The position numbers were made by a program, and so were the translations under genes. Shown here one piece after another: positions 10,955 through 49,267 of a stretch of DNA of 64,000 bases (positions within the stretch are counted from its first letter, which is position 1; the number at the start of each line of letters is the position of its first letter). The DNA is taken from positions 466,630 to 530,629 of the forward strand of contig NZ_KB905343.1 of assembly GCF_000378765.1 (NCBI RefSeq). Reading direction: 5' to 3'. The notes under the pieces are model-generated. The model ran no database searches. It was not told the origin of the DNA and worked only from the letters and a program-made list of their open reading frames with translations. Source of the DNA: Psychroflexus tropicus DSM 15496 (GTDB taxonomy: Bacteria; Bacteroidota; Bacteroidia; Flavobacteriales; Flavobacteriaceae).

Positions 10955-13357
10955 TTATAGTTTAGAGGTGAATTCTTTTATGGCCTTTTCCATGTCATTA
11001 GTCTTTTCATAGAGCTTCATGATTTCTTCATTTTCTCGTCCATCGGTTAAGTAAGCAGCGTAGACTTCTTTAGGAACTTCCAGACGAAACACATTGCTTT
11101 CTTTTCCGATTTTGATAAACATTTCGGTGTATTTTCTTGATCCAGTAAGCTGGTTTTTTATCGATTTCAATTGGTTCATATCATGACTAGTCAAATGAAG
11201 TCGCTTGACTAGTTCTTCATAGCCTTTTTCATTATTCAGACTATAAATGACTTGTGTGTTTTCAAGTATACTGGATGAAGTAGAATTGTTAGGAAGCTGA
11301 TTAATCGATTGTAATATGATACCTATCGCACCATTTTGCTTACGTATAGCTTGATAGTAAAATTCAACACTTTCTAATACGTTTTCAAATTTGAGCTGTT
11401 TGGCAAACTCATCAAATAAAATAATTCCCTTTTCAGCTCGGTTTTTCCAAATGGTTCGTTGTATGGCCGTTTTGATCAGCTTAAGCATCACTGATAATAT
11501 TTTTTTGTTGTCTTTAACTTCATCAAGTTCGAAAACAATCAAGCGTTTATCCTCGATCTTATAGGTTTGATCTTCGCTGACTTCAAACAAAAAACTATAG
11601 ATGCCATCTCCCACGTACTCAGACATGACGTGTAAAAAACTGGTGATATTGAAATAATCTGGATGAATATTGAGCTTATTTAATAGGTCTTGCTTATGTT
11701 GATTTATAAATTGATAAAAGCCGTCTAGTGAGTGATTGTCGTCTGTATTTTCATAATAATACCGTAGTATCTTTTTGATCGAAACTGATTCTGCTTTGGT
11801 TACTTCTAAATCAGAAGCAAACAGTTCAAAGAGGAAAACGGATAACTCTTCTAAACGCTCAGGGGAGAGATCCTTTGCTTCATTGATATAGAAGGGATTG
11901 ATCCCTAGATTTTTTCCGCTTTCGTAGCGAAGTACGGTGTACTGCTCGGGATATAACTTCGCAAATTTGGTATATGACCCTCCTAAATCAATAATAACCA
12001 GACGCACTCCGCTTTCGAAATACTGTCGAAGGATGTTATTGGCTAAAAAAGATTTCCCTTCACCAGTTGGAGCGAAAATGGCAAAATTTCTAGCCTTGAT
12101 TCTTTTCTTATCCTCATCCCAGACGTCTTTCAAGACTGGAATGTTATGTTCCCTATCATTAAAGATGATTCCTGTTTGATCGGACTTATAATTACTGTTA
12201 TTGATATAAAGACAAAGAGCATGCTTTAAATCTGTGACATACAAATCATCATTCGAGAAATTAGATGAAAAGCAGAAGTAACTATTGAGGAAATAATTTT
12301 TTCTTTCCTTGCCTCTAGGATAATAGGGGATAATGTCCAAGTCTTTAAACTCTGTTTTAATTTTTGAACTTATCCTGTTGAGGTCCTTGGGAGTCTTATC
12401 CCAGAAAATGACGTTGAAATGTCCTCGTATAATTCGAGCGTTATCATCTGCATTAATTTGATCCAGTATATGTTGAATCTTCTCGAGAACTATTTTGTTT
12501 TGTGAGCCAAAATTGGAGCTTTTACTTAGCTCTTCTACTTTTTTGTCCAATAACTTGCGCCACTTATGCTTATCATCTAAGTAAAGTATTTGATTCACAA
12601 TATGGTTCTCGTTTAACGTAAGCCCTAAGCCATCAACAAAGCCTTGATGAAATATAAAATCATCTGAAGTGAATTTCTCATTAGGCTTGCTACTCTGTAC
12701 ACTTTCGCCAAAGCACAGTTCGCTATTGATGGCTAGGGCATCAAAATAATTTTCTCCAATATTGACGTGGTTATTGTCAAGTATAATGTCAGTATCAAAT
12801 CCTGTATTGAATCCATTAAAATAGGTGTTTGTCAATTCTAGAATCTGCTCTCTATCGAGTGCAGTGAAGTTTAATTTTCGACTATTGTTGACAAATGAAA
12901 TGGAGTCACTAACTGAACTGATAAAACTTTTTAAGTTGTTTTCTAGCTCTTTAACTTTAGTCTTTGAGACTTTGAGCAGAGGGTTAACGTATTTAGGGTT
13001 ATTAAGAGCTTTGTTTTTTGTGACTATGAAAAATAAATAACACTCATGATCAATGTAGTCTCTCCCTCTAAAGTAGTCTCGCGTAGCTTTTTCTAAAAAT
13101 GTACGATTCGGGAGTTGATCCGAGGAAAACGATCTTTTTTGATAAACATCTTGTTTATGGATTACTGTTCCAACCGGTAATGATTTAAAGGCTTGAAACC
13201 AGGATCCATGAATGTCCTCGAAGTCTTTTTCAGAGAGAGAATACACTTCTGGAAGATGTCCTTTATAGCAGAGAACAATGTTTCCATTGTTGGCAAAAAC
13301 AATATTGTCCTGGATGTCAATGATTGGATGAACTGCAGATAAATTGATCTTAGTCAT
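10955..13357 (-). CDS. traG: Conjugation ATPase TraG (VirB4-like)
   Basis: An 800-aa VirB4-type ATPase that powers pilus assembly and substrate transfer at the inner membrane. The Walker A motif APTGEGKS lies near residues 425-432. The Walker B-like segment GIILFDEFAKQ lies near 640-650, and the downstream GAIGIILQSINQLP fits the family. The N-terminal 350 residues form the VirB4 N-domain. Length is typical for Bacteroidota TraG. It overlaps the 3' end of traF by 8 bp, implying coupled translation. Confidence 0.92.
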   Translation of the reverse strand: MTKINLSAVHPIIDIQDNIVFANNGNIVLCYKGHLPEVYSLSEKDFEDIHGSWFQAFKSLPVGTVIHKQDVYQKRSFSSDQLPNRTFLEKATRDYFRGRDYIDHECYLFFIVTKNKALNNPKYVNPLLKVSKTKVKELENNLKSFISSVSDSISFVNNSRKLNFTALDREQILELTNTYFNGFNTGFDTDIILDNNHVNIGENYFDALAINSELCFGESVQSSKPNEKFTSDDFIFHQGFVDGLGLTLNENHIVNQILYLDDKHKWRKLLDKKVEELSKSSNFGSQNKIVLEKIQHILDQINADDNARIIRGHFNVIFWDKTPKDLNRISSKIKTEFKDLDIIPYYPRGKERKNYFLNSYFCFSSNFSNDDLYVTDLKHALCLYINNSNYKSDQTGIIFNDREHNIPVLKDVWDEDKKRIKARNFAIFAPTGEGKSFLANNILRQYFESGVRLVIIDLGGSYTKFAKLYPEQYTVLRYESGKNLGINPFYINEAKDLSPERLEELSVFLFELFASDLEVTKAESVSIKKILRYYYENTDDNHSLDGFYQFINQHKQDLLNKLNIHPDYFNITSFLHVMSEYVGDGIYSFLFEVSEDQTYKIEDKRLIVFELDEVKDNKKILSVMLKLIKTAIQRTIWKNRAEKGIILFDEFAKQLKFENVLESVEFYYQAIRKQNGAIGIILQSINQLPNNSTSSSILENTQVIYSLNNEKGYEELVKRLHLTSHDMNQLKSIKNQLTGSRKYTEMFIKIGKESNVFRLEVPKEVYAAYLTDGRENEEIMKLYEKTNDMEKAIKEFTSKL

Positions 13358-22177: not shown

Positions 22178-24937
22178 TTAAGGTAAAGCGACAATCTCTT
22201 TTTTGTTAGCCTTTGTAAACATCTCTTTTGCAAGGGTCTTTATATCCTTAGGGCGAATAGATTCAATAAAATTCTCCACTTCACTTTTCTGAGGTGGTAT
22301 TGTATTAAATTGATAGTAGTCATGAATTATACCTAAAGTTTTGACCGGATTTTGTTCCCAGCTATTGATGTATTTAGGACGTATGCTGCTGATTTTTATT
22401 TTATCCAACTGTTCTTCACTCAATTCTTTTCTTTTTAAGTCTCTAATAATTTTATCTACTTCATTTGAAACCTCCTCAACTTGTTCTTCTAACGTCGGAA
22501 TAAAGACAGAAATATTAGCCTGTTCAGATACTTTTTGGTAGTAATAGGAAGCTTTCCAGTAATACATCGCTTTGTTTTCGACATACCTAATTTCAAATAG
22601 TCTATCGCTCAATGCCTTTTTTAAGATTTCAATTTTTAGTCGGTTTTTCCAGTCAGATGGATCTGAACGTTTGATGTATTTTAAAGCTAGCATGGCATTG
22701 GCGTTGGGAATGGATGACACTTTGATTGTTTTAGTAGGTCTCCTTTGCTTGGATGAACTCGTGGATGTTAAGTTTTTTGAAACTCGTTCTTTATTATTGG
22801 GTCCAACAAAGCGTTTTGTGATGTAAGGAAGAAGTTGTTCTGCTTTATAGGAACTACTTATCAAAATGGTAAAATCCTCTGAGTTACCAAAAATCATATC
22901 ATAGACATGATAGGCATTTTGCATAGTGATTTTTTTAGAAGCCTTATATTTTTCATGAACCCCAAGTCTTTTCCTCGGTAGTTTTAAAATTTTATTCACC
23001 CGTGCTCTGGTGTCAGAAAAACTTCTGTCAATGCCTGGATTTAAATAGCTTCTCCATTGGTTAAGTTGCCAATCTTTAAAAGCTAAACTATCCTTTCTAG
23101 GTGAGTCTATGTAATCCTGAAGTAAATCAAAAAAAACAGATAGATTCTGACTACCCAATTTTCCTTTTATTCCGCTTTCGGTTTCCGTGACATAAGGAGC
23201 TATCTTTTGAATGGAATTTATAGTCATGACCTCTTTCAATTCGTACTTATTCAATTGACCTACCCCAGCATTTTGAATGACCTTTGGAGCAAGCATTGCT
23301 TCATAATAATTTTCAGGATCTACATCATTAGCTCCAAAATCCTGAAATGCATGAAATTCTAAGAACTCTCTTTCCTGATCTAAAAATTCTTTGATAATCA
23401 CTTTCTGTCCATTGGCAAATTCGAAAACTCTGGATCCCAAAGGATCTTTTTCTAATTCCTTATAATCAGTTTGTTGGTTTTGTTTCTTCGTAAGAAAATT
23501 CGGATCGTATTGAGTTAGCCATGCTTTTGTTTTTTCTTTCCAATAGGCTTCACCAAAGTCAGAAGAGAAGGGTGCAATGACTAAAAAATCTTTTGTAGGC
23601 TGATCTAGTAATCTTCTTAAAGCTCTATTGAAGTCCTCCATACTAAACTTTTGCCACCAAGCTAAGAGTTCTTTTTTTTCTTTTGCACTTAAAGATTTAC
23701 CCAAACTCTTATTTTCGAGAAAATCTTGCCATCCTTTTGAAGATTTAGGCTCTGAAAGGTTTAAAGCCTCAAGCTTTTGGTTATGTATCTTAGACCACTC
23801 TTTTTTTGAAATTCCTTGATATTTAAGGAGATTCAACAACTTAAACGTTTTCTGTATTGATTTTTCTTCTTCACCCAATACGGATTTTATTGTAATATCA
23901 AGTACTGGAAAGTCAACATAACGTCTTACTACTGTTCTTGTTGGTGAATTGTAGGAATCAAGATGTTTCCAAAAAAAGTTACCAATGGTTTGATTTAATA
24001 TAGGTTTTAAATATTCCCATTGGCTCTCAGATAACTTAGATTTACTTAGGTCCTCCTTCTTAAATAGATGTATTTTAACTTCAGATCTGAACTCTGGATC
24101 TTTGATTTGATTATCGATGGCCATAAATTTTGGAGGGCCAGTGGAGAGTGTTTCTTTACAAATTTTCGTCTGAATAGGTTCAGACTTATTTGAGGTTGAA
24201 AATTTTTTTCGTATTTCAGTTCTAATATGATTTAGATCATCTATTTCACCAACGACCACTAAAGTGCTTAGTTCTGGTCTGTACCACTTTTTTATAAAAT
24301 CTTTCGCTTCCGAAATCTTAAAATTTTGGATATGTGACCACATTAAATCTGGTATAATGGGGGTAGCAACGCATTCTGAAAATTTAGTTCTTATCATATG
24401 GTCTTGAAAAGTGCTAAGTCCAAAATATACTTTTGCTCCTTCTTGATAAAGTGCTCCTTTCTCTGCTTCAAAGTTTTCTTTAGTCGGAAATAACTCACCA
24501 AACAAAGTCTCTTTTAAAAAGGTTAAGCCTTGATCTTGGAGAAAAGCATTGGAAGCAGGAAAATAAAAGTAAAAACTCGTATACTTATGACCTGTGGATC
24601 CACCATAGTTAAATGATTTCGACCTGATTGCCTCTTCCAGTTTTCCATTTTCATTATAGGCTTTGGTACGAAAAGCTGTAAAGGGAAGGTGTTCTATAAA
24701 GTGAGCAAAATCAAATTCATCTTTTTTTTGTCGATTAGATCCAGATCTTATATGTATATCCATATAGATTTGACCATTAGCCTTATTCATTGGCTTTATA
24801 TAGTAAGTAAAGCCGTTATCTAGGGTATCCATAATAACAGGGGCATCGGCTTGACTAAAACTTAGACTGAATTTAAAAGAGAGGAGTAGTATAAGTAGTA
24901 GTTTCATAATTATTTTATTGTGTTTAGTAACCTTCAT
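22178..24937 (-). CDS. Exported M16 (pitrilysin/insulinase) metallopeptidase
   Basis: A 919-aa zinc peptidase with a signal peptide (KLLLILLLSFKFSLSFSQ), so periplasmic or surface-exposed. The inverted zinc motif HxxEH is AHFIEHLPF near residues 82-90, and a downstream Glu in EKGALYQEG fits the third ligand. Length is that of fused two-domain M16 enzymes, with the second, non-catalytic half from about residue 500. It overlaps susD by 14 bp in an operon susC-susD-M16. Family enzymes cut short unfolded peptides in a closed chamber, so the operon probably imports and digests peptides. Confidence 0.9.
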   Translation of the reverse strand: MKVTKHNKIIMKLLLILLLSFKFSLSFSQADAPVIMDTLDNGFTYYIKPMNKANGQIYMDIHIRSGSNRQKKDEFDFAHFIEHLPFTAFRTKAYNENGKLEEAIRSKSFNYGGSTGHKYTSFYFYFPASNAFLQDQGLTFLKETLFGELFPTKENFEAEKGALYQEGAKVYFGLSTFQDHMIRTKFSECVATPIIPDLMWSHIQNFKISEAKDFIKKWYRPELSTLVVVGEIDDLNHIRTEIRKKFSTSNKSEPIQTKICKETLSTGPPKFMAIDNQIKDPEFRSEVKIHLFKKEDLSKSKLSESQWEYLKPILNQTIGNFFWKHLDSYNSPTRTVVRRYVDFPVLDITIKSVLGEEEKSIQKTFKLLNLLKYQGISKKEWSKIHNQKLEALNLSEPKSSKGWQDFLENKSLGKSLSAKEKKELLAWWQKFSMEDFNRALRRLLDQPTKDFLVIAPFSSDFGEAYWKEKTKAWLTQYDPNFLTKKQNQQTDYKELEKDPLGSRVFEFANGQKVIIKEFLDQEREFLEFHAFQDFGANDVDPENYYEAMLAPKVIQNAGVGQLNKYELKEVMTINSIQKIAPYVTETESGIKGKLGSQNLSVFFDLLQDYIDSPRKDSLAFKDWQLNQWRSYLNPGIDRSFSDTRARVNKILKLPRKRLGVHEKYKASKKITMQNAYHVYDMIFGNSEDFTILISSSYKAEQLLPYITKRFVGPNNKERVSKNLTSTSSSKQRRPTKTIKVSSIPNANAMLALKYIKRSDPSDWKNRLKIEILKKALSDRLFEIRYVENKAMYYWKASYYYQKVSEQANISVFIPTLEEQVEEVSNEVDKIIRDLKRKELSEEQLDKIKISSIRPKYINSWEQNPVKTLGIIHDYYQFNTIPPQKSEVENFIESIRPKDIKTLAKEMFTKANKKEIVALP

Positions 24938-26333
24938 TTTGTTCTAGATTTGGGTTTTTCATACGTTCAACTTCTGGGATGGGGTAAAAAATATCTGTGG
25001 GATTCCAGAGTGGTTTTTTGACAGATAAGACTTCGTTTACGGTTTGGGTTCGCTTAAGATCCAACCACCGATGTCCCCATTCAGCAAAGAATTCTTTCCT
25101 TCTTTCTGTGAGTATCAATTCTATTAATTCATTTTCAGAAAGGCCTGGATTAGTTTCAGACACCAAATCAATCTCAGATCTTTGGCGTATTTGATCTAAA
25201 TCTTCAATTGCTCCCGATAGATTTCCTTGTTTAGCTCTCGCTTCAGATCGAATTAGATATTGTTCTGCCAATCGAAATACAGTAGAGTATTCCGTGATAT
25301 CCCCACCTGAGTTATCAAATTGAATTTTGTATTTAAAAGGAAAGTTATAGTCTCTGGTTTCATCGCTAAAAGTACCAACCCAATTGATAAATCTTAAGTC
25401 ATTTTCCTCCCAGATGTCCATGAAATCATCTGATAATTCTACGGGACTGCTATTAGCGAAAATGATGACAAACAAATTTCCTTCTCTTGTATGGCTAAAT
25501 GTACCTCCCCAGCCTTCGGGAGAAATTTGCCAAAGGGCTTCTATGCTGTTGATAAGGAAAACATCATCTAAATCTTCATTTAAATTATACAAGTTACTCG
25601 ATGAAATGACTTGTGAACTATATTGTTCTGCCTGTACCCAGTTCTCTTGATATAAATGTACCCTCGCCAGTAAGGCCCTCACGACAGACGAGTTTATATA
25701 CTTACGGCTATCTTCTGGATAATTTTCATCTGTAAGTTCAAGAGCATCATTGAGATCAATTAAGATTTGAGCATTTACATTTTCAGGTGAGGCATTCGCT
25801 AGTTGTGCGTTGATTTGATAATCGGTATCTAAAACCAGGGGTACATTTTCGTAAAGATGGACTAGGTAGAAATAGGTGAATGCTCTTATAAATTTGGATT
25901 CACCTATAAGTCGATTTCGAGTTTCATCGTCTAAACTAGTAGAATTTTCAGCACCTTGTATGAGTGAGTTAGCCATATAAATGGTACTATAAGCACCAGA
26001 CCAAAGACTAAGATTGTAATCATTTTGAGGTAATACCTCGTTTTCTGAAAATTCAATCATATCTGGAATTGGATTGGTGATTTCAAAATTGTCGCCAGAT
26101 AAGCCTGATAAAAAAGTGACAGACCTATTTCCGCCAGCCGCAAAGGAGGTGTTAAAAAGTTGACTATATAACCCATCCAAAGCACTTAATGCTGATCGAT
26201 TATTCGTGAATAAAGTCTCTCCTGTAATTCTATCGTTTGGAACGTCAACTTCTACAAAGGATTCGCAGGAAGCTAAAAAACTTACTAAACCCAGTAAATA
26301 AATCGCTTTTATGAGTGTTTTGTTTTTAAACAT
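24924..26333 (-). CDS. SusD/RagB-family outer-membrane lipoprotein
   Basis: A 469-aa SusD-like surface lipoprotein. The lipobox is visible as SFLASC. Typical elements follow: an early TPR-like helical region, RALLARVHLYQENWVQAE, and the C-terminal LTERRKEFFAEWGHRWLDLKR signature. It forms the lid of the SusC channel. It is 12 bp downstream of susC and overlaps the M16 gene. The ligand cannot be read from the sequence; the peptidase partner suggests peptides over glycans. Confidence 0.93.
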   Translation of the reverse strand: MFKNKTLIKAIYLLGLVSFLASCESFVEVDVPNDRITGETLFTNNRSALSALDGLYSQLFNTSFAAGGNRSVTFLSGLSGDNFEITNPIPDMIEFSENEVLPQNDYNLSLWSGAYSTIYMANSLIQGAENSTSLDDETRNRLIGESKFIRAFTYFYLVHLYENVPLVLDTDYQINAQLANASPENVNAQILIDLNDALELTDENYPEDSRKYINSSVVRALLARVHLYQENWVQAEQYSSQVISSSNLYNLNEDLDDVFLINSIEALWQISPEGWGGTFSHTREGNLFVIIFANSSPVELSDDFMDIWEENDLRFINWVGTFSDETRDYNFPFKYKIQFDNSGGDITEYSTVFRLAEQYLIRSEARAKQGNLSGAIEDLDQIRQRSEIDLVSETNPGLSENELIELILTERRKEFFAEWGHRWLDLKRTQTVNEVLSVKKPLWNPTDIFYPIPEVERMKNPNLEQNEGY

Positions 26334-26345
26334 AATTCTGATTTT

Positions 26346-29300
26346 TTAAAAATTAATTTCTAATCCTGCCGTTATTGTTCTTAGTTCAGGCAACTGACTA
26401 CTTCCAGGAGATTGTGGATCTAAACCTTGATAATCTGTAAACGTGAAGAGATTCTGTCCAGTAACTATGATTCGTGAGGAGCGAATTAAAGAAGGTAGAA
26501 GCGGAAGTTGGTAACTTAAAGCCAGTGTTCGCAGCCTCACAAAAGAAGCATCTGTAACTAGGAAATTACTATTTAATGCATCGTTATAAGCAAAATTAGA
26601 AGACAGCAATTGTGAAGCTCTTTGTGTCACATTAGTGTCTCCTGGATTTCGCCAACGGTTATCAAAATCACTTTGCAAAACGTTTGACATTCTCCCTGGT
26701 GCTTGTCTAAACAACCGTGGTCCATCTTGCCCCACAAATTCTAAAAGAAATGACAGGCTCAAATTTTTGTAATTGATTTGATTTTGTAATCCTGCAAAGT
26801 ATTGACGGCCAACATCAACGGTAACCACCCTGTCTTCAAAATTTAAAGTACCGTCCTGATTAGCGTCTTCTACCCTAAATAAACCCGTTTCTGGATCAAC
26901 CCCATTAAATCTATAAAGTCTAAGTATATTAAGTGGTTGTCCTACTTCATAAATGTTGGCGTAGGGGGAATCTTCAATTCCTGGATAGGCAACAAGCTTA
27001 TTTCTAGGAAGGGTTAAGTTGAAGTTTGTTTGCCAACGCCAGTTGGACGATTGGAGGCTAATCAAAGTACCTTCAATTTCCCAACCTGTGTTTTCCACAG
27101 TTGCTGGTAAATTGGCTTGTACTGAATTGAATCCAGTTAGCGCTGGAAGACTAAAGCCAACTAATTGATTGGACGATCTGTTCCTAAACCAACTCACTTG
27201 AAATCGAATCCTGTCTTCTAAAAAGCCCAGTTCAATTCCAGCTTCCAATTTTTTATTAGTCTCCCAGGAATAATCTGGGTTAACCAGTTGGGTAGGGAAT
27301 AAACCTCCAGGAGCAGGGGTGGGTGAGTAGGTGTCTAAGTAGCCGTAATCTTGAATCTGATCGTTACCAGTAATCCCATAACTTCCTCTCAATTTTCCAA
27401 AACTTAACCAGGATAAGTTTTTAAAAACATCTTCCTCAGAAAATATCCAAGCCGCACCTATAGCTCCAAAATTGGCAAATTGTTTACCAGGTCCAAAACG
27501 CGAGGAGCCATCCCGCCGTCCTGTAAAATTAAGTAGATAGCGCTCCTTGAGATTAAGACCTATTCTTCCAAAAATAGCATTGTATCTGTATAGGATTTCT
27601 TGATTGTTGGAGACAAATACAGACCCTGCCGCCGCTAGATTACCTACCAATTGTTCATTGGAATAGCCCACTCCGCTTGCCCTTAAATTTTTGGATCTCT
27701 GTTCCTGGAAAGTGGCGCCTACTAAACCATCAATTTGTAAATTTCCTATCTCCGTACGATAGTCTATTTGAGGTTCAATGATCCAAGAGTTTCTATTGGT
27801 CAGCGAATGACTGGATCTGGCTTGTGCATTATCCCTAAACGAAGGATCTAAGGCTTCCACTGGATTTTTTACCAATTCTTCATTGTTTAATGCGGTATAG
27901 CCTGCATTGACTTTAACCAATAATCCATTGATGACTTCAAAACTTAATCCGAGGTTGCTTATTAATTGTTGAGTTTTAGCATTACTTCGATTTAAGGTCA
28001 CAGCCAGTGGATTGGTCCAGGTGGAATCCTCCCAGTTTAAACTACCGTCATCGTTATATAAAGCTGGGGCATTGGGTGGAAGTAATAAGGCGTTACTTAC
28101 AAAATTTGTACTGTTAAACTGATCATTCACATCAACACCATAGTTAACTGAGATCCTTGCTTTAAACCGATCGTCATCTGTTCTATGATTTAGAGACAAA
28201 CCTGAGGACCACTTTTCATAGCCAAAGTCGCCAGGGAAAACAGTCCCTGTTTTGAAATACCCATTAGACATTTGGAAGGAAGTATTTTTACTTCCTCCAG
28301 AAAGCATCACATTGGCATTGGTGGTTTCTGCGGTACCACCAAAGATGGTTTCTTGCCAATCTGTATAGCGGTCTCTGTCCCAAAGGAGAAGGTCTTCTGC
28401 TCTTACAGGTGTTGGTTCTCTATCATCATTGGCAAAGGCTTCTTCTCTCAACTGTATGTAATCTTGGGTGTTGAGAAGGTTTAAACGGCTTTCAACATCA
28501 CTTACCCCAGTATACACCCTGGCACTAACTTTAGTTTTTTGATTATAATTCTCACCATCCTTGGTCGTGATTAGAATGACCCCATTGGCTCCTCGAGATC
28601 CATAAATAGCAGTAGCATCGGCATCTTTAAGGATTTCTATGCTTTGAATGTTAGAAAGATTTAATGTACTTAAGGGGTCGAGACCAGTGGTTGTAGAAGT
28701 AGTTAATCCACTAAAACTATTGAGTGGACTGGAGTCTATAGGCACCCCATCTATGATATACAGGGGTAAGTTTCCATTGTTTTCAAAACCAGTTCTTAAA
28801 CTGCTTTGACCTCGGATTTGTATTTGAGAGGCTGCACCTGGGATCCCCGTTCTTTGTACTACAGAAACCCCAGCCATTCGGCCTGCTAAAGCATCTATGG
28901 GACTTACCACGGGCTGCAATTCTATATCTTCTGCAGTAACCCTAGATATATTCCCTGTACTGTTACGCTTGGTGGTGTTGTAATACCCAGCATTGATTTT
29001 AACTTCTTCAAGGGCAGCAACATCTTCTTCTAGCTGTACGTTGATTTCTCGTTGGCCATTGATTTCTCGAGCAACCGTTTTAAACCCAACATAGGAGAAT
29101 ACCAAAGTGCCATTGGATGGTGCTGTAATGCTATATCTACCATCTTGATTGGTCACCGTACCCTGTGTTGTATTTTTTAAGGACACCGTTACACCAGGTA
29201 TGGGGAGTCCATTTGGATCTTCTACTACACCAGTGATTTCGTTTTGTTGAAAGGGCAGGGGAGTAGTTCTGGATTCTGCATGTGCAGATAGTGATAGGAA

Positions 29301-29363
29301 GAAAAATAGTCCTCCCATATAAATGAGCGCCACCCGTTGGAGGCGCGAATACTTATTTTTCAT
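26346..29363 (-). CDS. SusC/RagA-family TonB-linked outer-membrane transporter
   Basis: A 1005-aa transporter. A signal peptide ends near SLSAHA. A carboxypeptidase-regulatory-like repeat follows (EITGVVEDPNGLPIPGVTVS). The plug domain contains RGQSSLR and DADATAIYGSRGANGVILIT, the SusC signature. The rest is a 22-strand-type barrel ending in phenylalanine (TAGLEINF). With SusD it imports large ligands using TonB energy. No FecR/sigma pair lies nearby. Instead the gene has an unusually long structured leader of about 600 nt with an internal terminator, suggesting control by attenuation. Confidence 0.95.
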   Translation of the reverse strand: MKNKYSRLQRVALIYMGGLFFFLSLSAHAESRTTPLPFQQNEITGVVEDPNGLPIPGVTVSLKNTTQGTVTNQDGRYSITAPSNGTLVFSYVGFKTVAREINGQREINVQLEEDVAALEEVKINAGYYNTTKRNSTGNISRVTAEDIELQPVVSPIDALAGRMAGVSVVQRTGIPGAASQIQIRGQSSLRTGFENNGNLPLYIIDGVPIDSSPLNSFSGLTTSTTTGLDPLSTLNLSNIQSIEILKDADATAIYGSRGANGVILITTKDGENYNQKTKVSARVYTGVSDVESRLNLLNTQDYIQLREEAFANDDREPTPVRAEDLLLWDRDRYTDWQETIFGGTAETTNANVMLSGGSKNTSFQMSNGYFKTGTVFPGDFGYEKWSSGLSLNHRTDDDRFKARISVNYGVDVNDQFNSTNFVSNALLLPPNAPALYNDDGSLNWEDSTWTNPLAVTLNRSNAKTQQLISNLGLSFEVINGLLVKVNAGYTALNNEELVKNPVEALDPSFRDNAQARSSHSLTNRNSWIIEPQIDYRTEIGNLQIDGLVGATFQEQRSKNLRASGVGYSNEQLVGNLAAAGSVFVSNNQEILYRYNAIFGRIGLNLKERYLLNFTGRRDGSSRFGPGKQFANFGAIGAAWIFSEEDVFKNLSWLSFGKLRGSYGITGNDQIQDYGYLDTYSPTPAPGGLFPTQLVNPDYSWETNKKLEAGIELGFLEDRIRFQVSWFRNRSSNQLVGFSLPALTGFNSVQANLPATVENTGWEIEGTLISLQSSNWRWQTNFNLTLPRNKLVAYPGIEDSPYANIYEVGQPLNILRLYRFNGVDPETGLFRVEDANQDGTLNFEDRVVTVDVGRQYFAGLQNQINYKNLSLSFLLEFVGQDGPRLFRQAPGRMSNVLQSDFDNRWRNPGDTNVTQRASQLLSSNFAYNDALNSNFLVTDASFVRLRTLALSYQLPLLPSLIRSSRIIVTGQNLFTFTDYQGLDPQSPGSSQLPELRTITAGLEINF

Positions 29364-37036: not shown

Positions 37037-37113
37037 AACTTTGCACAATAACTAAGCCTTCGACGCGCCGATAGGCCAGCCTTCGATAAACTCAGCAGAG
37101 CCCGCTGAAGACA

Positions 37114-37176
37114 CTGTTGAGGGGCTGCTCCAATATGTTCATCGGGGATCCATAGCTAGAAGGTTGGCCTGGTTTT
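37114..37176. repeat. REP-like element, copy 2
   Basis: CTGTTGAGGGGCTGCTCCAA begins a segment that aligns with 35402-35467 (about 70% by eye), including TTCATCGGGGATC and GGCCTGGTTTTTT. Just before it, GCCTTCGATAAACTCAGC (37079-37096) resembles the widespread TTCGACAAGCTCAG motif of REP sequences. Confidence 0.45.
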
Positions 37177-37181: not shown

Positions 37182-39038
37182 TTAAGAGGACTGTTCTTTA
37201 AAATAATCCCTTGTTTCTTGATCCTTACAATAGATATAACAGCCTTTCATTCCTCTAGTCATTAGAGTTCTGTAGGTGTTTTTGATAATCTCTTTTAAAA
37301 GGGATTTCCAATATTCTGGATCTTTTTTTATACCGCTTTTCCAACCAAATACGGTTCGGTCACCTTTATCTCTTTTAGCGGGTTGAACTAATACCTCTCC
37401 ATTTCTTACAATAAGATCTTCTCCTATAATTACTCCTATGTAGTCAAGTTCAAGACCCTGAGCAGTATGAATGCATCCTATTTCTGTAACTGATTCCTCT
37501 TCTATGACCCACTTTCCCCCATAGTCTGTCATATTCCACTTCATATTAAATCCAAATTCTTCTTCTTTAAAATCAAAAACATCAGGATTTTTTTTACTGT
37601 CCCAAGGCCAGCAATAGCCAGCAACTAACCTTGCTTTATTATTTACTTTATTCTTTTTGAAGATTTCTTGCTGAAGAGCTAATGGATCATCAAAAACTCT
37701 AAAGTCGTATTCATAGTCCAGGCTTTTTAAATCAAAATTTGCAGTATCTCTAATTTGAAGAACATTGTCCAGCCAAGCGAGGTATCCATCAGAGCCATTA
37801 CATCTAAATTGTGATTCAAGCTTAAGTTTTGTAATGCCAATATTTCTTTCTTCAGCAAACTTCTCTATCAAATAGGATTCACCGTAATCATCTACAGAAA
37901 CACGTTGATTTTCATCAATAAAGAATACTGATGACAAAGCAGTTTCAATAATTTCAATGATTTGGTTATGACCTCTTTTTAAAAAGCCAGTTCGTTCTGT
38001 TAGGCGATGAGCCTCATCCACTATAAGTGTATTTATTGCATTTTTTGGAGCATTTATAAATGTACCTGAGCCAACGAACAAGTTTTTAAGTTCGACCTTC
38101 TTTTTAGTTCCTGATAGTTTCTCAAAATAGACATCTCTAGGTGCTGACGTTTTGGTCACATATTGGGACATTTTACCCCTTCTGTTCAATTCTACCAACA
38201 AATTAATAGCTACAACAGACTTACCAGTCCCTGGACCACCTTCTACAATCAGAACGTTTTTATGTTTTTCATTTGACTTAATACCTAAATCAAGAGCTGT
38301 TTCGTAAACTACTTTTTGGTCATCAATCATTACAAACTCTTGATTTCCCTTTATCATGTTTTTTAGGCTATCAGCAAGACTTTTAGTAGGTTTAATTTTA
38401 CCGTTGTCAATGCGAAACATAATATTAGAGTGATCGCCTTCCTTTATAAAACGTTTGATGAATTCCCTTAGTTTTATTGCATCAGGTTGAAGAAAAATAG
38501 GCGCTTTCTCTATGTAATAGCTATAAAAATCACTGGTGATATTTGAGTCCGGTTCGTAGTTATGAAGATAAGCACAGGGATATAAATTTATATGTTCTTC
38601 GTCTACTGTCGCGTTAAAGGATTGTAATAAAGCAGCATAAGACCAAGCCTGATAGGAGGGATGACTTGTTTCTGTAATTCCATGCTGAAATCTTGTTTTG
38701 ACAATCCCATCTTTTAAAGTGGCTTCAGCTTCTTGCCATTGCTTTAATTCAATAATAATAACGTTTTCTTTTCCATCGGAGGTACCTGATACTATAAAAT
38801 CGACTCTTTTTGATGTTTGTGGTAAATGATATTCAATAGAAATACCACAATCTTTAGGGATTTCATTGTCATAAAGTACCCTATCCATATATTGAAGTGA
38901 ATTTTGAAAAGATCTAAGCTCGTTACTAGCTACTTTTTTACCAGTACGTTCCAATATATGTTTTGAAACGATATTATGTATGTTATTGGTTAAGACATCA
39001 TTACTAAAATCCTCTTTAGTCTTATTGTAAACAAGCAT
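37182..39038 (-). CDS. PD-(D/E)XK nuclease fused to SF1-type helicase (DUF2075)
   Basis: A 618-aa protein. The N-terminal part has a nuclease-like core: D80 in KRVDFIV and E97-x-K99 in IIIELKQW, a PD-(D/E)XK pattern. The helicase core of the DUF2075 group follows: Walker A GGPGTGKS (about 267-274), Walker B IVDEAHRL (D341, E342), FIDENQRV, and the late motifs IGCIHTAQGLELDYIGV and TYRTLMTRGMKG. It would unwind and cut DNA or RNA. It is the last gene of a three-gene operon, 22 bp after the MazG-like gene. DUF2075 proteins recur in defence islands. Confidence 0.85.
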   Translation of the reverse strand: MLVYNKTKEDFSNDVLTNNIHNIVSKHILERTGKKVASNELRSFQNSLQYMDRVLYDNEIPKDCGISIEYHLPQTSKRVDFIVSGTSDGKENVIIIELKQWQEAEATLKDGIVKTRFQHGITETSHPSYQAWSYAALLQSFNATVDEEHINLYPCAYLHNYEPDSNITSDFYSYYIEKAPIFLQPDAIKLREFIKRFIKEGDHSNIMFRIDNGKIKPTKSLADSLKNMIKGNQEFVMIDDQKVVYETALDLGIKSNEKHKNVLIVEGGPGTGKSVVAINLLVELNRRGKMSQYVTKTSAPRDVYFEKLSGTKKKVELKNLFVGSGTFINAPKNAINTLIVDEAHRLTERTGFLKRGHNQIIEIIETALSSVFFIDENQRVSVDDYGESYLIEKFAEERNIGITKLKLESQFRCNGSDGYLAWLDNVLQIRDTANFDLKSLDYEYDFRVFDDPLALQQEIFKKNKVNNKARLVAGYCWPWDSKKNPDVFDFKEEEFGFNMKWNMTDYGGKWVIEEESVTEIGCIHTAQGLELDYIGVIIGEDLIVRNGEVLVQPAKRDKGDRTVFGWKSGIKKDPEYWKSLLKEIIKNTYRTLMTRGMKGCYIYCKDQETRDYFKEQSS

Positions 39039-39060
39039 AAGCTTTAGTTTTGGTTAGTGG

Positions 39061-39666
39061 TTACAATTTATCATATTTAGTACTGACCCCTTTAGATTTT
39101 GATATTGGATATTTTTTTGAATTCAACTCTATCTTTTCCAAAATAACTGATTCTAGGTCGATCTCTAAGTCTGTAACTAGATATAATAAAAAAGAAAAAA
39201 TATCAGCTACTTCGTGATCAATTTGTTTTTTGTTCGCTGACGAAATCTCTTTCCAAAGAAAACATTCTAGCAATTCACTAGCCTCGATTGACAATGCCAT
39301 AGCTAGGTCTTTTGGTTTATGAAATTGCTTCCAATCCCTTTCTTCTCTAAATGTTTCTAAAGCTTTAATGATAAGCTTCAAGGAAGAATTTATTCCCTTA
39401 TACAACACAAGTCGAAGTGAAGCTTCCTTTTCGACTTTAGAAAGGCATAAGATCTCGTTTTCAAAAACAATAGCCTTATCTACACTGTTCAACTTTATCG
39501 ACTTGTATCCATTTTCCTCTAGAAATTGATTTATTCTATTTTCAAGTTCCAAAATTGGAGTGATCTTATCTGTTGAAAATAATATATTAAAATTACCTTT
39601 TTCATCTAAAAAGCCGTCATAGGCTGAGGCTTCTTTATCATTTCTTGGGAAGTGAATACTTATCAT
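39061..39666 (-). CDS. MazG-like NTP pyrophosphohydrolase with an N-terminal extra domain
   Basis: A 201-aa protein. The C-terminal half carries the all-alpha NTP pyrophosphatase signature ExxE(12-28)ExxD: E128xxE131 in SIEASELLE and E152xxD155 in HEVADIFSF, after FREERDWKQFHKPKDLAMAL. The N-terminal 95 residues form an additional alpha/beta domain that I do not recognise. Family enzymes hydrolyse (d)NTPs or ppGpp. It lies 10 bp after the TPR-protease gene and 22 bp before the nuclease-helicase gene; such a set could deplete nucleotides during phage infection. Confidence 0.82.
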   Translation of the reverse strand: MISIHFPRNDKEASAYDGFLDEKGNFNILFSTDKITPILELENRINQFLEENGYKSIKLNSVDKAIVFENEILCLSKVEKEASLRLVLYKGINSSLKLIIKALETFREERDWKQFHKPKDLAMALSIEASELLECFLWKEISSANKKQIDHEVADIFSFLLYLVTDLEIDLESVILEKIELNSKKYPISKSKGVSTKYDKL

Positions 39667-39676
39667 GATTTGGTTT

Positions 39677-41617
39677 TTAAAGGGCTTTTTTTGCTAATTC
39701 ATACTCCTCTTGAAAAGGCATACCGAGATCTGAAAGCATTTCGGGGATGCCGAGCGCCCAACTCACGTAGTAATAAGCTAAAGCTTGATAACCTGACATT
39801 TTCTTATTAATAGAAGGTACCTCGTAATTTCCTTTTGATGGATCTATCCCAGTCATTCCAAGCGTAGCAAATTCAAACGCTATTTTTTTAATGTCCTCTT
39901 TGGACCTAGAATTAAAAAAATCTAATGCACCAACCATATACATTACAACAGCAGTATTGATCTCATCACTACCATGTGACTCTATAAATTTTCTACGTTC
40001 TTCAACAATATAATCAGGTTCTTCACTTTCTACACCATATGGGTCCGAATTGACTTCATCGATTACATCTTCTGCAGTTTTTGACTTATTTGTATTTTCT
40101 TTCTTAAGCTCAAATAAACCATCTAAATCTAAGTCTTCAGCCCAATGTTTTAAAAGTTCATACTCTTCTGAAGGTTCTTTATCTTTCGAGTATTCAAGGT
40201 ACTCATGATACAAATTTTCAGCTTGGTTTCTTTCAATTTTATTTGATTTGAATTCAGGAACTAAATCAATTCCGTAGAATTTTTTGTACCAAAGGGCATG
40301 GACCAAGTTTAATATTTTGGATTTAGAAACGATGGATTTCGGCATAATATTAACTACTTCCTTGTCTGTTGTCGCCTTAACTCCGTCTGATATAATTTTA
40401 TACAATGAGAGTAACTGAACTGGCCTTGCTTTAGGATGATTTTTATAAATATTTTGCTCAATAAACAGGTCTATTGGTGTATTAAAAACCTGAGAATTCA
40501 AACCATTAAATAGAGATGTTATTAACTTTTTAATATTTTCTGAGGGTATTCCTTTCTTCGAAAGGCCTGCCCTGAAATTACTCAATTCCTTAAAAAACTT
40601 ATCGAGGTGTGATTGATTTGAAGTAAAAAGAAAATTATTCTGAATTTTTCGAGCCTCAATAATAAACTCAAGGTGATATAACTCATGTAGCATCAAATGA
40701 GGAACAGTCAAATCTTTTTTCTTATAAAGTAACCTATGGTAATCCTTGTTTTTATACTCTGCGACTTCTAATTTAGCAAGAGTATCTATAGTGTTCGAAA
40801 GCTCAATTTTGATTTTTTTCTTCGACTTTTTTATCAAATCATCTTTTTGTTGATGAATATCAGATTCTACTTCAGGTAAATTATTTTTTGTCAGTTCTTT
40901 TGAAATTTCTATTGCCAACTGTTTCGCATTCTCATATACTTCTTCTTTGGGCTTTGAACATTTCAGAGCTGTTACAACCTTATCAAAGGCAAAATCCATT
41001 TCACCTTGATTGTAATATACTAATGCTAAACCATATAAAGCATTTGGGAATTTAGAATTCACTTTAATAGATTCTTCAAAAAAGCTCTTGGCCTCATCCA
41101 AATGATTCTGTTGAGCTAAAAGACTAGCTATATTAGATAAAGAAAGATAATCGTCTGGATCGTATTTTAAAGCAGTATTCCAATAGCTTAAGGCCGATTC
41201 TAACTCAGATCTTTCATGCTGTAAATTTCCCATTAAAATAAGCGCATATGTATTTTTGGGATTCAACTTTAAAGCTGAGATTAAAAAATTTTCTGCTTGT
41301 ACGATATCACCAGTTTGAAAATAAATTTGAGCTAATATCCGATTAAGTTCAGAAGAGTGAGGATATTTTGTAAGTAGACTTTGAGCTTTTTGTAAAGCTT
41401 TATTTAAACTCCCTTTTTCACACAATCCTACTAGATTATTATGGACTTGATCTGGCATCAAGTTTATGTCATCTATATCAATTTCAGCTACACCATCGAT
41501 TAAATTAAACTCAAAATCTTTATAGATTTTTTTTAATTCAGTTATCACATCCTCCTCCTGCTTATTTTTTAGGTTTAATATTTCAGTTAAAACTGATAAG
41601 TCAATCTTAATTTTCAT
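39677..41617 (-). CDS. TPR-repeat protein with an HExxH metalloprotease-like centre
   Basis: A 646-aa cytosolic protein. At least five TPR units occupy about 57-225 (AQIYFQTGDIVQAENFLISA; LYGLALVYYNQGEMDFAFDK). The central part has LMLHELYHLEFIIEARK with H311, E312 and H315 and a nearby Glu at 317 or 321, a zinc-protease pattern. An acidic stretch lies near 500-545, followed by a C-terminal helical domain. The layout of TPR sensor plus protease resembles caspase-like TPR-CHAT proteases in function class only. It is first in an operon with a MazG-like enzyme and a nuclease-helicase. The 273 bp upstream separate it from a divergent gene. Confidence 0.7.
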   Translation of the reverse strand: MKIKIDLSVLTEILNLKNKQEEDVITELKKIYKDFEFNLIDGVAEIDIDDINLMPDQVHNNLVGLCEKGSLNKALQKAQSLLTKYPHSSELNRILAQIYFQTGDIVQAENFLISALKLNPKNTYALILMGNLQHERSELESALSYWNTALKYDPDDYLSLSNIASLLAQQNHLDEAKSFFEESIKVNSKFPNALYGLALVYYNQGEMDFAFDKVVTALKCSKPKEEVYENAKQLAIEISKELTKNNLPEVESDIHQQKDDLIKKSKKKIKIELSNTIDTLAKLEVAEYKNKDYHRLLYKKKDLTVPHLMLHELYHLEFIIEARKIQNNFLFTSNQSHLDKFFKELSNFRAGLSKKGIPSENIKKLITSLFNGLNSQVFNTPIDLFIEQNIYKNHPKARPVQLLSLYKIISDGVKATTDKEVVNIMPKSIVSKSKILNLVHALWYKKFYGIDLVPEFKSNKIERNQAENLYHEYLEYSKDKEPSEEYELLKHWAEDLDLDGLFELKKENTNKSKTAEDVIDEVNSDPYGVESEEPDYIVEERRKFIESHGSDEINTAVVMYMVGALDFFNSRSKEDIKKIAFEFATLGMTGIDPSKGNYEVPSINKKMSGYQALAYYYVSWALGIPEMLSDLGMPFQEEYELAKKAL

Positions 41618-41890: not shown

Positions 41891-42796
41891 ATGTCACATA
41901 ATTTCTCCAGAAAATTTAAACTTCCAAACCAAGCTTATGAATTTCTAGATATCCCCACAAACGAAGAAGATATTTTAGCTTTTATTGACCCTTTCTTGAT
42001 TGAAAAAAATAAATCTGATATTTTTATTAAAAAAGTTAGTCAAAGGCTTCAAGAATTTTTAAGAGAACTCAATAATTCTTATATTAAAATAAATGATTAT
42101 AAAAATGGTATTCCATTTTTAAATCATCTGCATGAACCAAATGAATTCCACCTAGGTTATTCTTCATCTAATAAAGGAAAAGCAATTTCAAAATCAAAAT
42201 CTGAAGAAATATTTTATGCACTAAGAGGTAACAGATTCGCCAGTCAAGCCTTTTCTATAACTAATGAAGCTCATAATGTATTATTACTTGTAAAGGGAAT
42301 AGGACAAGATATTATGTCTGATATAATCTCAAATGTATGTAGAGATATTTTCTCAGAATTTACAGTTTCCATTTGCACAAAATATATGATTAGTAATGAA
42401 TATTTGAAAAATGTTACTATAGAATATTATAATTCAAAAAGTAAAAAATGGGATACAAAAAAAGTAAAACTGCCATTTATTAATTCTAAGATAATATTGC
42501 TTCCAGCTGATATTTTATCTGGTAAGCGAGAATATTCGTCAAGATATAATTGGTTTATTTCTAAGAATTATCTTTCAAAAGAGGTCCTAGAAAACAAAAG
42601 ACCCTCAAATAGTAAAATGGTTACTGAAATGAAGGATGGTACCAAAAAAGCAATAATAAAGGAAATTTATAATCAATATAGAAAACCGAAAGATGAATTG
42701 ATTGAATTTGTATTACAATATCCTAATTCTCTAGATGAATTTATGGAATATGCAAAAGTTCATTATCCTAAATTGAATTTAGATAATTTAAAATAA
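41891..42796 (+). CDS. Conserved hypothetical protein of a defence-island type
   Basis: A 301-aa protein with no signal peptide or membrane helix. Notable segments are AFIDPFLIEK near residue 31 and VKGIGQDIMSDIISNVCRDI near 128-147. I have the impression of similar 'G-x-D-x-x-S-D' proteins in defence islands but cannot name a family or activity. It is divergent from the TPR-protease operon (273-bp gap), so a shared regulatory region is possible. The next 305 bp (42797-43101) hold only a repeat copy. Confidence 0.55.
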   Translation: MSHNFSRKFKLPNQAYEFLDIPTNEEDILAFIDPFLIEKNKSDIFIKKVSQRLQEFLRELNNSYIKINDYKNGIPFLNHLHEPNEFHLGYSSSNKGKAISKSKSEEIFYALRGNRFASQAFSITNEAHNVLLLVKGIGQDIMSDIISNVCRDIFSEFTVSICTKYMISNEYLKNVTIEYYNSKSKKWDTKKVKLPFINSKIILLPADILSGKREYSSRYNWFISKNYLSKEVLENKRPSNSKMVTEMKDGTKKAIIKEIYNQYRKPKDELIEFVLQYPNSLDEFMEYAKVHYPKLNLDNLK

Positions 42797-47149: not shown

Positions 47150-49267
47150 ATGAAAAAAATAATCTTAATATTTCCTTTATTGTTTTTTATATGTGCTGCG
47201 ATAGCGCAAAATTCTAGCTCAAAAGAAGACTCTACCTACATCTGCCCGCCTTGTGATAACTCTTGCGATCAGGAAGTGTATTCAGAACCAGGTATTTGCT
47301 CTCAATGCAATATGGCACTGGTAAAAAGAGAACTACCTAAAACTATTGCGTTTTATCTGCAGGATGGGGTAGAAGTATTGGACTTTGCAGGACCTCTTGA
47401 AGTTTTTTCTTATGCGGGCTATGAAGTATATACAGTTTCCAAAAACAGGCAACCTATAAAGTCACAGGGAGTGCTTACCATAACTCCTGATTACAGTATA
47501 GATGATGCTCCTCAGGCAGATATTTTGGCCTTCTTTGGAGGCAATGCCAGCTCAGCATATGAAGATGAAAACATAATAAACTGGATAAGACAACAGCAAG
47601 GGGTACAGTATTACTTTTCTGTATGTACAGGTGCCTTCATATTAGCTCAGGCAGGTATTCTGGATGGAAAAATTGCTACTACCTTTCATGATGCATTGCC
47701 CGATCTAGAAGCTGCGTATCCGGCAATAGATGTAAGGAAAAATGTTCGCTTTGTAGATAATGGTAACATCATTACCACAGCGGGTATCTCTGCTGGTATA
47801 GACGGAGCATTGCACCTGGTAGCTAAACTTAAGGGATTTGAGGCTGCCAAACGTACTGCATACTACATGGAATATGACAACTGGGAAGTTGGAAACGGTC
47901 TAATACTTTCAGACGATGATCCATATCCAAAGCAGATTTCTTATAAAAAGCTTCAAGAGTATGAGGGGGAATATGAATACATAAATAATTCTTCTCTACT
48001 AATTTTCGCCTCGGAACTTGATACCACGCTTTATGCGCTCATTGATGGTGCCAAGTATCCTTTAAATTATATGGATACTAATAAGTTCACTGATATTCAG
48101 GGTAAGCCTGTCATTTTCCAAAGAGATAAAAAAAGTAAAGTTAAAAGTTACAAAACTGAAGGAAAGACATTTGCTTTTCTCAACGATGATTTTGATAGGT
48201 CGATAGTGTATCCTAGAAAAGAATTATATGGCATTCCTGATTCTTATGCTTATCAGGTGCCGAAAGACCTGAATGATGGTTTATCGGTAGGGAATTTAGA
48301 AACTACTTTTGATAATTCTCAACCTATTATTGAAATGGTGAAAGAAACCATTATGGGACACTATCCAGATGTGCATAGTATACTCATACACAAAAATGAC
48401 AAGCTAGTATTAGAGGAATATTTCTATGGTTACGATAAGAACACACCTCATCAATTGAGGTCTGCCACTAAGCCATTTATTGGCGGAGTCCTTGGAATTG
48501 CTATTGACAAGGGGTTTATTAAAAGCGAGGACGATAGACTTTTGCCTTATTTCAATTCCAGATATCAGGAAATCGCAAATATGGATGACAGGAAAAAAGA
48601 TATAACCATTGAAAATTTCCTAAGGTATCGGCACGGCATGGACTGTGAGAATAATAATCCTGAAAGCGAAGGTTATGAGTTGAAAATGATGCAAAGTGAA
48701 GATTGGGTCAAACATACACTTGATCTACCCATGGTCAAAGAGCCCGGTCAAACCTCATCTTATTGTACAGGATGTCCTCTCACTTTGGGTAGTTTAGTCG
48801 AGATTACCACTGAAAAAAATATCGAAGATTTTGCGGAAAAGAACCTATTTGAACCATTAGGAATCTCGAATTACGACTGGACTTTTGAACCAAATCAGAA
48901 AAGCATAAATATGTTTAGTCAAATGTATATCACCCCGAGGGACTTAATAAAATTAGCTAAACTTTATAAAGATGGCGGTAAGTGGAAAGGTAATCAAATT
49001 ATTTCTGAAGAATGGGTTAATAAAACATTTGATACAGAAGAAGGAGATTACGGATACGGATGGGAACATAAGTATTTCATTATTGACGGCAAGAGATATA
49101 ATTCTTATTTAGCTACTGGAAATGGAGGGCAGAAAATAAACATTTGGCCAGAATTGGATATGATTACGGTATTTACAGGCGGAAATTATAATTCATATGC
49201 ATTGTATGGTAAAAGTACTCCGCCCAATGAAATGATTCCTAAGTATATATTGAAAGCTTTGGAATAA
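47150..49267 (+). CDS. Exported fusion: metal-binding, PfpI and serine beta-lactamase-like domains
   Basis: A 705-aa periplasmic protein. A signal peptide ends near ICAAIAQ. A heavy-metal-binding-like knuckle follows (YICPPCDNSC ... PGICSQCNMALV; about residues 25-60). A DJ-1/PfpI domain spans about 63-250 (YFSVCTGAFILAQAGILDG). A C-terminal class C beta-lactamase/CubicO-like domain lies at about 395-705 with SxxK as SATK. The second motif YxN is replaced (SYCTGC), and the third is GNGG without His or Lys. It may be a hydrolase or an inactive binding protein. It is probably controlled by the GlxA-like gene upstream. Confidence 0.82.
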   Translation: MKKIILIFPLLFFICAAIAQNSSSKEDSTYICPPCDNSCDQEVYSEPGICSQCNMALVKRELPKTIAFYLQDGVEVLDFAGPLEVFSYAGYEVYTVSKNRQPIKSQGVLTITPDYSIDDAPQADILAFFGGNASSAYEDENIINWIRQQQGVQYYFSVCTGAFILAQAGILDGKIATTFHDALPDLEAAYPAIDVRKNVRFVDNGNIITTAGISAGIDGALHLVAKLKGFEAAKRTAYYMEYDNWEVGNGLILSDDDPYPKQISYKKLQEYEGEYEYINNSSLLIFASELDTTLYALIDGAKYPLNYMDTNKFTDIQGKPVIFQRDKKSKVKSYKTEGKTFAFLNDDFDRSIVYPRKELYGIPDSYAYQVPKDLNDGLSVGNLETTFDNSQPIIEMVKETIMGHYPDVHSILIHKNDKLVLEEYFYGYDKNTPHQLRSATKPFIGGVLGIAIDKGFIKSEDDRLLPYFNSRYQEIANMDDRKKDITIENFLRYRHGMDCENNNPESEGYELKMMQSEDWVKHTLDLPMVKEPGQTSSYCTGCPLTLGSLVEITTEKNIEDFAEKNLFEPLGISNYDWTFEPNQKSINMFSQMYITPRDLIKLAKLYKDGGKWKGNQIISEEWVNKTFDTEEGDYGYGWEHKYFIIDGKRYNSYLATGNGGQKINIWPELDMITVFTGGNYNSYALYGKSTPPNEMIPKYILKALE

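Follow-up and report, generated by a model that had tools for sequence, protein, structure and literature searches.

Gene content of the operon

We analysed a 64,000-nucleotide window of the Psychroflexus tropicus DSM 15496 genome (assembly GCF_000378765.1, contig NZ_KB905343.1, positions 466,630 to 530,629), which contains an operon of three genes coding for a protein with tetratricopeptide repeats (TPR) and a HExxH motif, a MazG-like nucleoside triphosphate (NTP) pyrophosphohydrolase and a nuclease fused to a helicase. The original prediction, made from the letters of the window, had described three co-directional genes separated by 10 and 22 bp and read them as a single phage defence system. 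Our scan for open reading frames (ORFs) found the same genes with the same gaps, all on the minus strand and with the TPR gene first; the features given below lie on this strand as well.

The first gene (39677..41617), here called the leader and identified by ORF scan, Pfam and its relatives, codes for 646 residues. The TPR repeats cover about residues 68 to 221 (40955..41416), where Pfam TPR families match (TPR_1, 5e-17) and the structure model shows helical hairpins. They are joined, as had been proposed, to an HELYH sequence at residues 311 to 315 (40673..40687), a putative zinc-binding and catalytic motif formed by H311, E312 and H315. The sequence NTPIDLFIE (40457..40483) carries N379, D383 and E387, among which a putative third metal ligand is found.

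The second gene (39061..39666) codes for a 201-residue protein whose residues 124 to 201 match the MazG-like family (Pfam ID PF12643; 5e-13, 49.5 bits against a cut-off of 27). Its catalytic ExxE...ExxD motifs (39202..39285) begin at E128 (EASE) and E152 (EVAD), with all four metal-binding residues (E128, E131, E152, and D155) present, and they follow an N-terminal extension of about 95 residues (39382..39666), in agreement with the earlier description; this extension is delimited by an alignment of 11 long forms and has no family assigned. The MazG protein of many other loci, with 109 residues, is without it. Residues 46 to 108 show a weak NCBIfam match to octanoyl-[GcvH] N-octanoyltransferase (3e-4), far under the curated cut-off. 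A free-standing copy of the N-terminal domain considered at locus L106 was unsupported (BLASTP E of 0.003 over 20 residues, hhalign probability 1.2).

The third gene (37182..39038) codes for a 618-residue PD-(D/E)XK nuclease, recognised by motif, fused to an SLFN-g3 helicase (Pfam ID PF09848; 1.7e-98 over residues 260 to 606, 330.6 bits against a cut-off of 24). The nuclease core D80...E97-x-K99 (38742..38801), the Walker A motif GGPGTGKS at residues 267 to 274 (38217..38240) and the Walker B motif LIVDEAHR at residues 338 to 345 (38004..38027) confirm the nuclease and helicase motifs read from the sequence before. We take PF09848 to be the former DUF2075 and SLFN-g3 to stand for Schlafen group 3, presumably with kinship to the vertebrate Schlafens.

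The TPR-HExxH protein is found at the head of operons

Relatives of the leader were sought in a species-genome collection with two peptide patterns, one of them spanning N379 to I386 and neither including HExxH or E387, and the best 80 of 104 relatives were taken as leader loci, in which genes were called with a simple script, not an annotation pipeline. By their record titles, these loci are mostly from Bacteroidota, with some from Chlorobiaceae and others, and the leader is also present in one phage-collection record and two plasmids. Among viral contigs, 48 pattern matches contained no true leader relative.

The leader is rare. Using the part after the TPR repeats as the query (the full-length protein matched TPRs in 74 of 100 genomes) and not counting three weak partial matches (E 7e-7 to 7e-4), we counted 4 clear matches among the 397 Flavobacteriaceae genomes sampled and 3 among 395 sampled from the class, with the P. 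tropicus genome itself included in both counts. MazG follows the leader in all six distinct genomes from these two evenly drawn samples.

Of the 76 loci having a gene downstream of the leader, 57 have it on the same strand at a distance of at most 60 bp, compared with an upstream gene so placed in 10 of the 71 loci having one. Since close same-strand neighbours are far commoner downstream than upstream, the arrangement is more than chance, and the TPR-HExxH gene can be called a leader.

The record labelled 'Microcystis phage Mwe-JY31' (PP438423.1, locus L040) carries the complete trio together with ParA and genes that by eye resemble those for coupling proteins and serine recombinases, which suggests a plasmid or mobile element and not a phage. 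On the Marivirga plasmid p1 (L039), the leader is broken into frames and the helicase is, by eye, in pieces, with a 204-residue MazG gene between them.

MazG and the nuclease-helicase form a pair of their own

A MazG of this type is present in 15 of the 397 Flavobacteriaceae genomes, with the helicase as its neighbour in 13 of these, and the leader stands in front of only 4 of the 13 pairs, leaving 9 without it. Conversely, MazG adjoins the helicase in all nine genomes with a match to the window helicase at an E-value of at most 1e-30, five matching the helicase half only. MazG and the helicase-nuclease are therefore a stable pair to which the leader is an optional addition. The trio was expected to stay together across genomes, and its genes are indeed adjacent in Mesohalobacter, Salegentibacter, Formosa, the 'Microcystis phage' record, and others besides Psychroflexus, but the leaderless pairs show that it is not a fixed trio.

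Seen from the leader, MazG lies within 1 kb downstream on the same strand in 49 of the 76 loci whose sequence continues for 600 bp or more behind the leader. The distance between both genes is at most 10 nucleotides in 44 of the 49 loci and zero or less, with overlapping stop and start, in 25. Behind MazG we found a PD-(D/E)XK helicase at 20 loci besides the window, a GIY-YIG helicase at 19, a McrBC-like pair of AAA_5 and DUF2357-PDDEXK_7 proteins at 8, a T5orf172 protein at 1 and an unlabelled partner at L045, where the MazG is short. These labels were assigned by hand, based on Pfam and PADLOC scans of representatives, BLAST against a small set of seeds, and look-alikes. The 19 loci labelled GIY-YIG were assigned by BLAST to the L033 helicase, whose N-terminus has the nuclease match in Pfam (4e-5), a short GIY pattern having matched none of the 19; the McrBC-like label is by look-alike only in L052, L060, L061, L074, and L117; L047 was labelled by BLAST without a match to the ExK pattern, and L073 and L114 were labelled from truncated genes.

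A MazG motif pattern, permissive in allowing K at one site, matched 48 of 50 MazG proteins; in the MazG of L071, one of the two misses, the pattern fails and the residues do not. A MazG relative in L105 (9199-9825) has the residues aligned to E131, E152 and D155 replaced and is still kept in its operon, being probably inactive. Tandem SLFN-g3 helicase genes, two in number, lie behind leader and MazG in L098, L053, L077, L118, L119, and L120. A protein of about 235 residues, by eye resembling the endonuclease/exonuclease/phosphatase type, is encoded between leader and MazG in L047 (9265-9972) and L068 (9272-9982), and the L047 copy has no PADLOC match. In one genome (G554, L125), leader and MazG precede a type III methyltransferase gene.

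The leader precedes unrelated defence operons and exchanges partners

In 15 of the 27 leader loci lacking MazG, a recognised or candidate defence operon follows the leader in the same direction, with one or two short ORFs in between in L055, L066 and L097. Bacteriophage exclusion (BREX) genes are found in three of these loci (BrxA-BrxB-BrxC in L049 and L102, BrxF-BrxC in L066), type I restriction-modification in L069 and L093, type III in L050, L085, L097, and L108, and a type II/IIG-like system in L107. Further partners are a DrmD helicase with a methylase resembling DISARM (defence island system associated with restriction-modification) in L095 and L099, which are nearly identical to each other, and, at single loci, a phospholipase D (PLD)-helicase (L113), a Ppl-like protein (L055), and a T5orf172 nuclease (L104). 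At L126, a 96-codon vestige of the leader, consisting of its first approximately 30 codons (by eye) and its last approximately 65 (by BLAST), heads a BREX-like operon (BrxF, BrxC), and the stop of the vestige overlaps the next start.

The exchange of partners was followed on a leader tree, which is a quick tree of 80 proteins with 14 open forks, 14 unlabelled rows, and L050 left out for length. Across its 66 labelled tips, no fewer than 26 changes of partner class are required, compared with 33 to 43 in 200 label shuffles; MazG presence changes 6 times (shuffles 11 to 17), and the effector behind MazG changes 15 times on 49 tips (shuffles 17 to 26). As these changes are many and yet none of the 200 shuffles was as low for any of the three characters, the partners track the leader tree in part and are nonetheless often exchanged. 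The leaders of L059 and L056, for example, are 92% identical over the compared columns, one preceding a GIY-YIG helicase and the other a McrBC-like pair. No domain common to all partners was found among the partner classes.

The single defence system of the original prediction is thus partly supported and too narrow: the setting is defence related, but the leader heads McrBC-like, BREX, restriction-modification, DISARM-like and PLD-helicase operons as well.

The HExxH domain resembles a zincin in motif and order of elements

Conservation was evaluated in an alignment of the window leader with 49 of the 80 loci, hand-chosen for length. H311, E312, H315, H294, N379, D383 and E387 are invariant in all 50 sequences, the invariance from N379 to I386 being partly built in because this stretch was contained in one of the search patterns.

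The AlphaFold2 model has a mean predicted local distance difference test (pLDDT) score of 89.5 for the whole leader and 91.2 for its C-terminal part. It consists, in the region of interest, of three predicted strands, a helix with the HExxH motif (residues 305 to 324) and a long helix (residues 359 to 393) bearing N379, D383, and E387, both helices being confidently predicted. Strands, HExxH helix and a downstream acidic helix are the usual order of a zincin. The leader has the HExxH motif and the conserved third-ligand candidates that mark zincins, and, judging by sequence, one of N379, D383 and E387 would be the ligand. The likeness to DUF2201, a putative metallopeptidase family, is one of spacing (N-x3-D-x3-E/N), and none of the comparisons made shows a relation. 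In fold searches with the full-length model, TPR-type proteins stood at the top of the matches listed.

Poly-G tracts near the start of the leader gene in a subset of relatives

Several leader ORFs began about 100 codons late, with the first approximately 21 codons in another frame and a run of G at the break. Tracts of 7 to 13 G are present in 22 of the 80 leader loci, at codons 19 to 21 in 20 of them and at codon 39 in two. Read from a single assembly for each species, often a metagenome bin, 10 copies keep the frame (ON, 657 to 663 codons; Flavobacterium sp. RSP15 is one such carrier) and 12 are out of frame (OFF, as in Pedobacter puniceum), the latter stopping at codons 22 to 25 or, in L079, at codon 69. 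All 12 OFF copies have a labelled partner. Runs of at least seven G or C occur 23 times in 42.6 kb around the leader starts versus 8 times in 1,052 kb of other sequence from these loci, 2 of the 8 being in TPR-labelled ORFs and 1 in a helicase-labelled ORF.

Tract presence tracks the tree, with 11 changes compared with 13 to 22 in shuffles, whereas the ON/OFF state has no tree signal (8 changes; shuffles 3 to 10, mean 7.6). Because the tracts are enriched at the 5' end, are found in ON and OFF copies, and differ in state without regard to the tree, the leader appears to be phase variable by poly-G slippage in some relatives, where it would switch within a strain.

A proposed switchable protease-like arm of DNA-attacking systems

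We favour the reading, with a probability of roughly 0.42, that the leader is a switchable, protease-like arm added to immune systems that attack DNA. Two modules meet in the window operon. In one of them, the helicase-nuclease would attack foreign DNA and MazG would clean or deplete nucleotides, as their families suggest. The other is the TPR-HExxH protein as a portable leader heading many DNA-attacking defence operons: its TPR superhelix may recognise a protein made or altered in infection, whereupon the zincin-like domain would bind zinc and cut phage or host proteins, providing a protein-cutting arm beside the cutting of DNA. A sensor-protease and nucleotide depletion by MazG were already part of the earlier proposal, and we keep both as plausible roles. 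The leader would add to its partner rather than restrain it, and the arm seems to be costly or useful only conditionally, since poly-G slippage apparently switches it in many relatives.

Several observations weigh against this reading. No Pfam or NCBIfam family matches leader residues 305 to 393 at an E-value of at most 0.1, the HExxH domain has no match among PDB sequences, and a Foldseek search of the PDB with the C-terminal model gave nothing at an E-value of at most 0.001 (best E 1.3); with family, PDB sequence, and fold searches all empty, the word peptidase is owed to the motif. The leader copy of the window has no poly-G tract, and homopolymer errors in the assemblies may account for some ON/OFF calls elsewhere. 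Not every partner of an OFF copy is evidently intact: the helicase is split in L058, contig ends truncate the L073 helicase and the L069 and L093 genes, and in L085 the type III gene appears short. In 8 of the 76 loci the gene after the leader is encoded on the opposite strand, and 12 of the 27 loci lacking MazG have no clear defence operon behind the leader: nothing clear follows it in L048, L067, L087, L089, L100, L110, L111, L115, and L116, a DUF4062 protein follows in L091, a convergent MazG-GIY-helicase pair in L109, and a 98-residue fragment in L114.

The empty searches by family and fold are what would be expected if the HExxH domain were no peptidase at all; it could serve some other chemistry by binding metal or nucleic acid, or have a structural role. 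The complete invariance of HExxH and the downstream acidic helix and the three strands before the HExxH helix make this unlikely. If the domain is a peptidase, it could instead cut, and so switch on, the partner nuclease. Protease-nuclease pairs with such a logic exist, as the accessible part of one report describes (PMC12799240), and the near contact or overlap of leader and MazG genes would suit it; yet partners as different as HsdM, BrxA, McrB-like proteins and SLFN helicases offer no obvious common cleavable element, and the leaderless MazG-helicase pairs would have to do without activation. A single substrate shared within the partners is disfavoured because no domain is common to them all, and we regard an activating protease as rather unlikely, if worth keeping in view.

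In the opposite role, the leader would hold its partner in check, by degrading or limiting it, to prevent self-damage. This would be reasonable for DNA-attacking partner types, which are a potential danger to the host, and EcoKI is an established case, its restriction being alleviated through ClpXP according to the available text of the source (PMC11109961). However, the 12 out-of-frame copies all retain a labelled partner, some of these genes being cut or split, and the MazG-helicase pair persists without a leader in most Flavobacteriaceae that have it, when a needed restraint should be less dispensable. Since OFF copies keep effector genes and leaderless helicase pairs exist, a restraining or antitoxin role is quite unlikely. 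Even more doubtful is derepression, in which the leader would cut an Xre repressor and thereby switch on the defence operon. ImmA/ImmR is the model for a metalloprotease cutting an Xre repressor. An Xre-like helix-turn-helix gene lies directly upstream of the leader in seven loci, in L042 confirmed by Pfam and in L059, L061, L064, L074, L101, and L106 assigned by eye, which keeps the idea alive for these seven, but inspection by eye of the same strand within 200 bp showed none in the remaining 73 loci, nor was one seen beside the window operon; in L066 an Xre-like gene is on the downstream side. The least probable alternative is that the TPR gene is a hitchhiker, near defence genes merely through their clustering in islands. 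It would fit the strain-specific genes flanking the window operon and the MazG-less loci with no clear defence operon directly behind the leader, but it explains neither the asymmetry between downstream and upstream neighbours, nor the stop-start overlaps with MazG, nor the deleted vestige that still heads a BREX-like operon.

Under the reading of a switchable protease-like arm, what is new is the leader itself, which is undescribed in the literature searched, portable, and apparently switchable in some relatives. More tentatively still, it may represent an immune component of a new class: a portable TPR metalloprotease of unseen fold, phase variable, switched by poly-G tracts and plugged in before BREX, type I/II/III/IV restriction, DISARM-like systems and helicase-nucleases. 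Annotation usually treats a defence system as a closed set of genes, and the leader family would be a plug-in common to many unrelated systems; in lineages with a switchable leader, it could offer a single shared point for tuning immunity. A protease-like family without known fold would also be gained, and MazG with the Schlafen-type nuclease-helicase is a free-standing candidate defence unit.

Relation to known systems

The leader, MazG and helicase-nuclease are not modelled as a system in PADLOC 2.0.0 (2023). In this release, the leader matches PDC-M71B over the TPR region only (9e-4), and the helicase matches PDC-S41, AbiO, and Nhi, each over part of the protein; the window MazG and the leader of a relative (L034) have no match. 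Word searches of open-licence PubMed Central papers listed no description of the leader family or of a system of MazG and SLFN-g3 helicase.

A close parallel is with the gated nuclease-protease pairs, such as the Hachiman and AVAST trypsin-like protease with a metallo-beta-lactamase (MBL) nuclease and the caspase-nuclease 'canu', where a protease gene has likewise been acquired repeatedly by unrelated defence systems, as far as the accessible part of the paper goes (PMC12799240). In those pairs a trypsin-like or caspase protease acts on an MBL-type pro-nuclease, whereas the leader is a TPR-HExxH protein, has no fixed nuclease partner and appears phase variable in some relatives. None of the three window proteins has an MBL-type nuclease, trypsin-like or caspase domain in Pfam. 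Phase variation is known for brxX of BREX and for restriction methyltransferases, according to the available portions of two papers (PMC6326788, PMC12707154), and apparent switching of a defence gene by homopolymer slippage is shared with brxX and phasevarions. The switched gene is, however, an accessory leader and not a methyltransferase, in a family that heads many types of system. In a survey of BREX, the words TPR, tetratricopeptide, zincin, and MazG do not occur in the accessible part (PMC12839542).

The available text on an M48-family protein beside a type I restriction-modification/DarTG island also places a metallopeptidase gene among restriction genes (PMC12255303); the leader differs in matching no peptidase family in Pfam or NCBIfam. 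The MoxR-vWA conflict systems include TPRs and, rarely, a metallopeptidase among their effector domains, but the window operon has no vWA or MoxR partner, and the accessible part of that study does not mention MazG (PMC7159879). Other systems are described in the available parts of PMC11090510, PMC12458937, PMC7159879, and PMC12265719.

The window MazG is like other PF12643 pyrophosphohydrolases in its family match and intact ExxE...ExxD; the MazG genes of the leader loci stand apart by their place close behind a leader and before nuclease-helicases or McrBC-like pairs, and the window form by its extra N-terminal domain. The helicase domain is that of the PF09848 SLFN-g3 helicases, from which the protein stands apart by an N-terminal PD-(D/E)XK nuclease, identified by motif, or, in relatives, a GIY-YIG nuclease. 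DefensePredictor lists MazG among uncharacterised predicted defence domains, in the part of the paper accessible (PMC13092281).

Genomic surroundings of the operon

The gene flanking the operon on the left is present in only 1 of 27 genomes of the genus and the one on the right in 2, the P. tropicus genome included in both counts and the second copy of the right gene having 30% identity. The right gene (41891-42796, plus strand) is divergent from the operon and matches the PADLOC candidate PDC-M36A (1e-18). A TraG-type conjugation ATPase is encoded 24 kb from the operon (10955-13357, minus strand), which suggests that the left part of the window contains an integrative conjugative element. With strain-specific genes on both sides and a TraG-type gene within the window, the operon lies in variable DNA. 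Of ten further window proteins scanned with PADLOC, nine had no match and the tenth had weak matches to mad8 (2e-10) and HerA (5e-6), being TraG-like according to Pfam. The GC-rich stretch beside the operon (37040-37170) is single copy in the genome.

Elsewhere in the window, an ordinary Bacteroidota nutrient-uptake locus (22178-29363, minus strand) contains a SusC-like TonB receptor and SusD with an adjoining M16 peptidase, and a 705-residue protein (47150-49267, plus strand) combines DJ-1/PfpI, beta-lactamase-type, and heavy-metal-binding domains, with an AraC/DJ-1 regulator alongside.

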